60,248 nt of DNA from Bacillota bacterium (GTDB taxonomy: Bacteria > Bacillota > Sulfobacillia > JAUYEG01), in NCBI GenBank assembly GCA_030691505.1, contig JAUYEG010000081.1:126738-186985 (forward strand), read 5' to 3'. Made by a program: the position numbers and the translations under genes. Shown here piece by piece: positions 28,927 through 53,793 of the stretch (positions are counted from its first letter, which is position 1; the number at the start of each line of letters is the position of its first letter). The notes below the pieces were generated by a model, which saw only the letters and a list, made by a program, of their open reading frames with translations, was not told the DNA's origin and did no database searches.

Positions 28927-29205
28927 ATGGCTCAAGGACAGTCTCGGAACAGGGCGCTGGTCCCTGGCGCCCAGAACGCGCTTGAGCAGTTTAAGTATCA
29001 AGTTGCCAGCAGCATCGGCGTTACCCCGCCGGCGAGCGGTTACTGGGGTGAGCTCACCTCGCGTGACTGCGGCGCGGTTGGCGGCAACATGGTCCGGAGC
29101 ATGATTCAGCTCGCGGAGCAGCAGCTTTCCGGTGGAACCGGGACCATCACCGCGGGTACCGCCCGCACGATGGGAACCACGGGCACCACCCAGACCACCC
29201 GGTAA
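28927..29205 (+). CDS. Alpha/beta-type small acid-soluble spore protein
   Basis: DNA-coating protein of the spore core that protects DNA from UV and heat and is degraded by the Gpr protease on germination. 92 residues. The family pattern is clear: LVPGAQNALEQFKYQVAS, then GYWGELTSRDCGAVGGNMV and SMIQLAEQQL. In the Gpr site both usual Glu residues are replaced: KYQVASSIGV against the common form KLEIASEFGV. A Gly/Thr-rich tail of about 25 residues follows. ATG 28927 comes after AGAGGAGGTG at ideal spacing. It is strong evidence that the organism forms endospores. Confidence 0.93.
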   Translation: MAQGQSRNRALVPGAQNALEQFKYQVASSIGVTPPASGYWGELTSRDCGAVGGNMVRSMIQLAEQQLSGGTGTITAGTARTMGTTGTTQTTR

Positions 29206-52657: not shown

Positions 52658-53740
52658 CTAGACCACGTACTCCAGCGCCGCGCCGGGGAAATGCCGGCAG
52701 ATGAGATCGGCCATGAATTCCTTGACCTCGTTCATCTGGCCGGTATCGTATACCCACTTGCCGTAGCCGAATTGCCCAATCCGGTACCGCCGCCCTTCTT
52801 CGCTCATCGGAAGACCCGCCCCAGCGTGCCGGCTGAGGATCAGGTCGCGGGCCCGCGCGGTGAAGCGGTGGGTAACAACCTCGAACGTCAGCCCCTTTCC
52901 GTCGGCGCCTCGGGCGACGTCCCCGGCCGCAACCGTCGCCGCCACCGACTCTGCCAGCTCCGCGTACTCCTCGCGCCAACCGGGGTACGCCAGCACGGGC
53001 GCGATCATCAGCCCGATGGGATAGCCCGCCCGCGCAACCGCGGCCGCCGCCGCCAGCCGCGCCGCTATGGTTGCCGTGCCGGCTTCCCACCTCCTGACGA
53101 CGGACGGCGTGTTGATGCTAAACCGCACACGGGTGCGTCCGCGGTGTTCCGCCGCCAGCAGCGGCTCGACCGAACCGAACTTCGTCACCACCCGGAGCAG
53201 CGTGCGGCCGTCACGCCCAAAGAACTCGACCGCGCGGGTCAGGGCCCCCGTAAGCGGTTCCACGGCGATAGGGTCGCCGGTCGCGGCGGCCTCAAAGACG
53301 GTGGCCCGCCCGTCCCCGGATGCGGCGGATGCGGCGGTCGCGGCGGTTGCGGCGTACTCGGCCGCTTTCGCCAGTATCTCGTCCACATTGACATAGACCC
53401 GGATGTATGGGTGGGGGCCGAGCGTCGTCTGCAGGTAGCAGTAAGCGCACAGGCCTGGGCAGCTCGTGACCAGCGGCAGCTGCCAGTCGGCCGAGGGCCT
53501 GCACCGCTGAAACGTCAGGTTGCGGCGCACCGCCACGACGAGTGTACGCTTGGCGGCCCGGTAGGCCCCGGCGATATCGCCCGGAGGGCAGCACACGGGC
53601 ACGCGTCCGCGCGGTGGCAGCACCCTGACCTCGGGCAGCAGTTTGGTGAGTTGAGTGTGCAGCCGGCGGCCCAAGTCGTGCTCGAGCGCCGCGGGCTCAA
53701 AGAAGGCGCGGTCTATCATCAGCGACGGTTGCTGTCCCAT
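52658..53740 (-). CDS. splB: Spore photoproduct lyase homologue lacking the catalytic Cys
   Basis: Radical SAM enzyme of the SPL family, which reverses the thymine spore photoproduct on germination. About 360 residues. The cluster motif with flanking Tyr is intact, SCPGLCAYCYLQTTLG, as are FSINT and GYPIGLMIAP. In B. subtilis SPL the H-atom donor Cys141 lies in FEASCTSD; here the same segment is FEAAATGD, so Cys is Ala (codon at 53282-53284). An Ala-rich insert precedes this segment. ATG 53740 is used; ATG 53719 is possible. It is divergent from a GntR-ABC operon across a palindromic operator. It may have altered chemistry or a different DNA substrate. Confidence 0.88.
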   Translation of the reverse strand: MGQQPSLMIDRAFFEPAALEHDLGRRLHTQLTKLLPEVRVLPPRGRVPVCCPPGDIAGAYRAAKRTLVVAVRRNLTFQRCRPSADWQLPLVTSCPGLCAYCYLQTTLGPHPYIRVYVNVDEILAKAAEYAATAATAASAASGDGRATVFEAAATGDPIAVEPLTGALTRAVEFFGRDGRTLLRVVTKFGSVEPLLAAEHRGRTRVRFSINTPSVVRRWEAGTATIAARLAAAAAVARAGYPIGLMIAPVLAYPGWREEYAELAESVAATVAAGDVARGADGKGLTFEVVTHRFTARARDLILSRHAGAGLPMSEEGRRYRIGQFGYGKWVYDTGQMNEVKEFMADLICRHFPGAALEYVV

Positions 53741-53773: not shown

Positions 53774-53793
53774 TGTATTAGTGTAATAATACA
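53774..53793. promoter_or_regulatory. Palindromic operator for GntR (YtrA-type) regulator
   Basis: TGTATTA (53774-53780) and TAATACA (53787-53793) form a perfect inverted repeat with a 6-base spacer. It lies between the divergent SPL and GntR genes, and TTGACG at 53755 may be a -35 box reading right. Repressors of the YtrA group usually bind such sites in front of their own operon. Confidence 0.65.

Follow-up and report, generated by a model that had tools for sequence, protein, structure and literature searches.

The window, i.e., the whole analysed stretch of 60,248 nucleotides, encodes a protein that is, judged from its sequence, with little doubt a spore photoproduct lyase (SPL) of the clostridial type. 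Repair of the spore photoproduct by this enzyme would rely on Cys126 as the H donor, in place of Cys141 of the Bacillus enzyme. The initial annotation had taken the enzyme to have lost its H donor, a view which is not borne out, as it overlooked Cys126, located at position 76 of the Geobacillus thermodenitrificans (Gt) SPL. In the following, residues of the window protein are numbered along the open frame, and positions in the Gt and Bacillus subtilis (Bs) enzymes carry the respective prefix. The relevant features are:

52658..53740, minus strand: SPL gene, likely start ATG 53740, alternative ATG 53719 (PF20903 333 bits, TIGR04070 389 bits)
53501-53503, minus strand: TGC codon of Cys126 within FQRCRPSA, at position Gt76; proposed H-atom donor
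53435..53461, minus strand: CPGLCAYCY, the radical SAM motif CX3CX2C with Cys140, Cys144 and Cys147, and Tyr146 and Tyr148
53273..53296, minus strand: FEAAATGD, containing Ala199 at the position of Bs Cys141/Gt Cys140
53282-53284, minus strand: GCG codon of Ala199, aligned without gaps to Gt140
28948..29127 (extent of the match), plus strand: alpha/beta-type SASP gene, one of several in the genome, given as context only

The open frame spans positions 53878-52658 on the minus strand and comprises 406 residues without an internal stop. As a gene reaching up to 53878 would overlap the divergent GntR gene, the first 46 residues are probably untranslated, with translation starting at ATG 53740 or 53719. 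The match to PF20903 covers residues 56-405 and reaches 333.3 bits, against a Pfam gathering score of 27 bits. The equivalog model TIGR04070 is matched over its full length with 389.3 bits, which is 11 below the curated cut-off of 400; family membership is therefore claimed by PF20903 and the clostridial type, and not by the NCBIfam rule. The score of 104 bits against TIGR03886 (spore photoproduct lyase family protein) lies far below the cut-off of 437.55 bits, and this family represents a distant radical SAM relative to which the window protein does not belong.

Inspection of the catalytic residues confirmed several points of the initial annotation. The Bacillus catalytic Cys is indeed replaced by Ala in FEAAATGD, and no base of the GCG codon matches that of either Cys codon, which means that the exchange needs more than one substitution. 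Translation and alignment likewise showed that the radical SAM Cys residues and both Tyr (CAYCYLQ) are kept, Tyr146 and Tyr148 corresponding to Bs Tyr97 and Tyr99. Cys126 aligns without gaps to Gt76, which is Ser in the wild-type Gt enzyme. With Ala199, the protein thus lacks the H-donor Cys at Bs141/Gt140 that characterizes Bacillus-type SPLs, and it displays the clostridial-type combination of Cys at Gt76 and Ala or Ser at Gt140. An AlphaFold model with a mean pLDDT of 92.8 shows the SPL fold, and a Foldseek comparison with the Gt SPL structures 4fhf and 4rh0 gave a TM score of 0.92; together with the PF20903 score, this speaks against a chance resemblance. The sequence thus shows the [4Fe-4S]/SAM motif, the two Tyr of the radical relay, Cys at Gt76 and Ala at Gt140, all of them on one SPL fold.

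A scan of genome contigs with the window protein yielded few relatives. The family was therefore surveyed across whole genomes: the PF20903 profile was run against more than 900 genomes of Bacillota (the phylum name being inferred), and the resulting loci were aligned. Among the 182 full-length SPLs, all of which conserve CX3CX2C and both Tyr, 126 combine Cys at Gt76 with Ala (100) or Ser (26) at Gt140, and the other 56 have Ser at Gt76 and Cys at Gt140; not one of the 182 has Cys at both positions or at neither. Outside the cluster motif, no further alignment column contains Cys in more than 20% of the proteins of either group. Because Cys at Gt76 is invariant in the 126 of 126 SPLs without Cys at Gt140, and because this is the known donor site of the clostridial type (Cys74 of Clostridium acetobutylicum; S76C in 4RH0), Cys126 very probably acts as the H donor. 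As an argument against its own reading, the initial annotation had named a structural alignment that places a further conserved Cys at the H-donor position, and Cys126 is in effect such a residue.

Within the same survey, the exact motif FEAAATGD occurs only in the window protein, FEAAATSD is found in four other proteins, and the commonest forms are FEGAATSD (67) and FEGSATSD (21). At the sequence level, FEAAATGD is a variant of this commonest form, FEG(A/S)ATSD, and no sign of a lost donor; with Ala or Ser as the majority state of the family at Gt140, Ala199 is what would be expected. In three genomes the survey also met SPL genes split between frames or broken by stops (G761 C6:135663-136675, G142 C2:34389-35395 and G090 C12:19795-20797); these genomes may be losing SPL, or the breaks may be assembly errors.

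The genomic context fits repair of the spore photoproduct. Proteins of the alpha/beta-type SASP class make UV irradiation yield this lesion. Five SASP matches at four loci were found in the genome together with Spo0A_C, as is expected of an endospore former with alpha/beta-type SASP, and the spore photoproduct is thus an expected lesion. Next to the SPL gene lie a divergent GntR regulator with an ABC transporter, and a PLP enzyme. The initial annotation had regarded the GntR-ABC operon as an unusual neighbor for an SPL gene. No GntR homologue was found beside other SPL genes in the flanks covered (up to 1.5 kb for most loci); on this ground a functional partnership with SPL was rejected, and the neighborhood carries no functional signal. 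The stretch separating the SPL gene from the divergent GntR gene contains, at 53774-53793, an imperfect inverted repeat (TGTATTAGTG/TAATAATACA), which is plausible as a putative GntR operator and might also influence SPL transcription.

An Ala at the Bacillus donor position could also be expected from an SPL homologue which has no Cys donor at all and either acts on another lesion or draws on Tyr or solvent. We consider this very improbable, as the protein carries a Cys at the other of the two known donor positions, where all full-length SPLs without Cys at Gt140 have this residue, as it is the single SPL of its genome, and as the spore photoproduct-forming context is present with SASP and Spo0A. 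The initial annotation had left a choice between another H donor and another lesion: the former is very probably right, with Cys126 at Gt76, and the latter is not supported, given that Ala or Ser at Gt140 pairs with Cys at Gt76 in 126 of 126 cases. Another DNA lesion as substrate was rejected, with no signal pointing there.

Equally hard to sustain is the idea of a decaying or inactive gene in which Ala would be a loss-of-function change. The sequence is divergent, with 40-54% identity to the relatives aligned and a long end branch in the tree, but the frame is free of stops, all motif residues are kept, the fold is well modelled and most of the family shares Ala or Ser at Gt140. That a sequencing or assembly error turned Cys into Ala might come to mind for a draft genome of 177 contigs; however, this would require an error at every base of the codon, and Cys126, which compensates for the Ala, matches exactly the alternative seen in nature. 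We therefore regard this explanation as extremely remote. A functional clostridial-type SPL using Cys126 is consequently the reading we prefer.

With respect to the family as a whole, a tree built with the trait columns removed, in which several inner branches are weak, did not unite the Cys140 proteins (those with Cys at Gt140) in one clade. The large Bacilli clade of this type has as its sister a pair of Cys76 proteins of the same class (L205 and L206), and three Cys140 proteins (L007, L067 and L082) are placed among Cys76 proteins. These five are also the exceptions to the split between Bacilli and clostridial types, L205 and L206 being Bacilli-class with Cys76/Ser140 and L007, L067 and L082 non-Bacilli with Cys140. 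Constraining all Cys140 rows together was moderately rejected (AU p = 0.029), for a group partly defined after the tree had been seen, and an independent-pairs test of the Cys exchange found two pairs on supported branches, too few for significance. Non-monophyly of the Cys140 proteins and the AU rejection make repeated relocation of the donor likely, albeit not certain. On balance, we favor a scenario in which the H-donor Cys moved more than once between Gt76 and Gt140, on opposite sides of the pocket, with always exactly one left, and in which the window protein is part of a small clade with both types, grouping with L017 (Cys76) and L007 (Cys140).

In a separate, coherent SPL-like clade of spore formers in alignment A2 (L029, L030, L187 and L190-L198), both known donor sites are without Cys, with Asn at Gt76 and Ser at Gt140 (FEIGSNSD). 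Its members keep CX3CX2C and both Tyr, and a further Cys at Gt101 is invariant among them (YCYLVC/YCYLLC). Two members were scanned, and both scored below the cut-offs of TIGR04070 and TIGR03886. Alpha/beta-type SASP are encoded in 12 of the 12 genomes, the clade protein is the sole PF20903 protein in 10 of them, and conserved neighbors of the clade genes were not found. The clade is a candidate for a third donor site or another function.

For the window protein itself the finding is an ordinary one, which removes a false lead: a donor of the Cys126 type is already known for clostridial SPLs, and the C. acetobutylicum enzyme with the alternative Cys has already been assayed. The family pattern illustrates clearly how a catalytic residue can shift to another position with the chemistry unaltered, and it marks out the Asn76/Ser140 clade as the group truly without both donors, to which the H-donor question belongs.

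The SPL mechanism with Cys, Tyr99 and Tyr97 has been described (PMC5368176; PMC3742179). Wild-type SPLs of B. subtilis and G. thermodenitrificans share the window protein's fold, cluster motif and Tyr pair, but have their donor at Cys141 and Cys140, respectively, and Ser at Gt76. In C. acetobutylicum SPL, which has no Cys141 equivalent, the donor is reported to be the conserved Cys74, projected opposite Tyr across the pocket, and the enzyme converts dinucleotide SP to ~80% TpT and ~20% TpT-SO2- (PMC5368176). From the published texts and the residue position we infer that Cys74 equals Gt76. Although it stems from a different lineage, and is likened here via literature and residue position, this enzyme resembles the window protein in its single upstream Cys, CX3CX2C motif and Tyr relay. 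The nearest PDB sequence is 4RH0, entitled "Spore photoproduct lyase C140A/S76C mutant with bound AdoMet". This Gt variant (4RH0, 4RH1), 41% identical to the window protein, has the same fold and the same Cys76/Ala140 pair, which is man-made in the double mutant and natural in the window protein.
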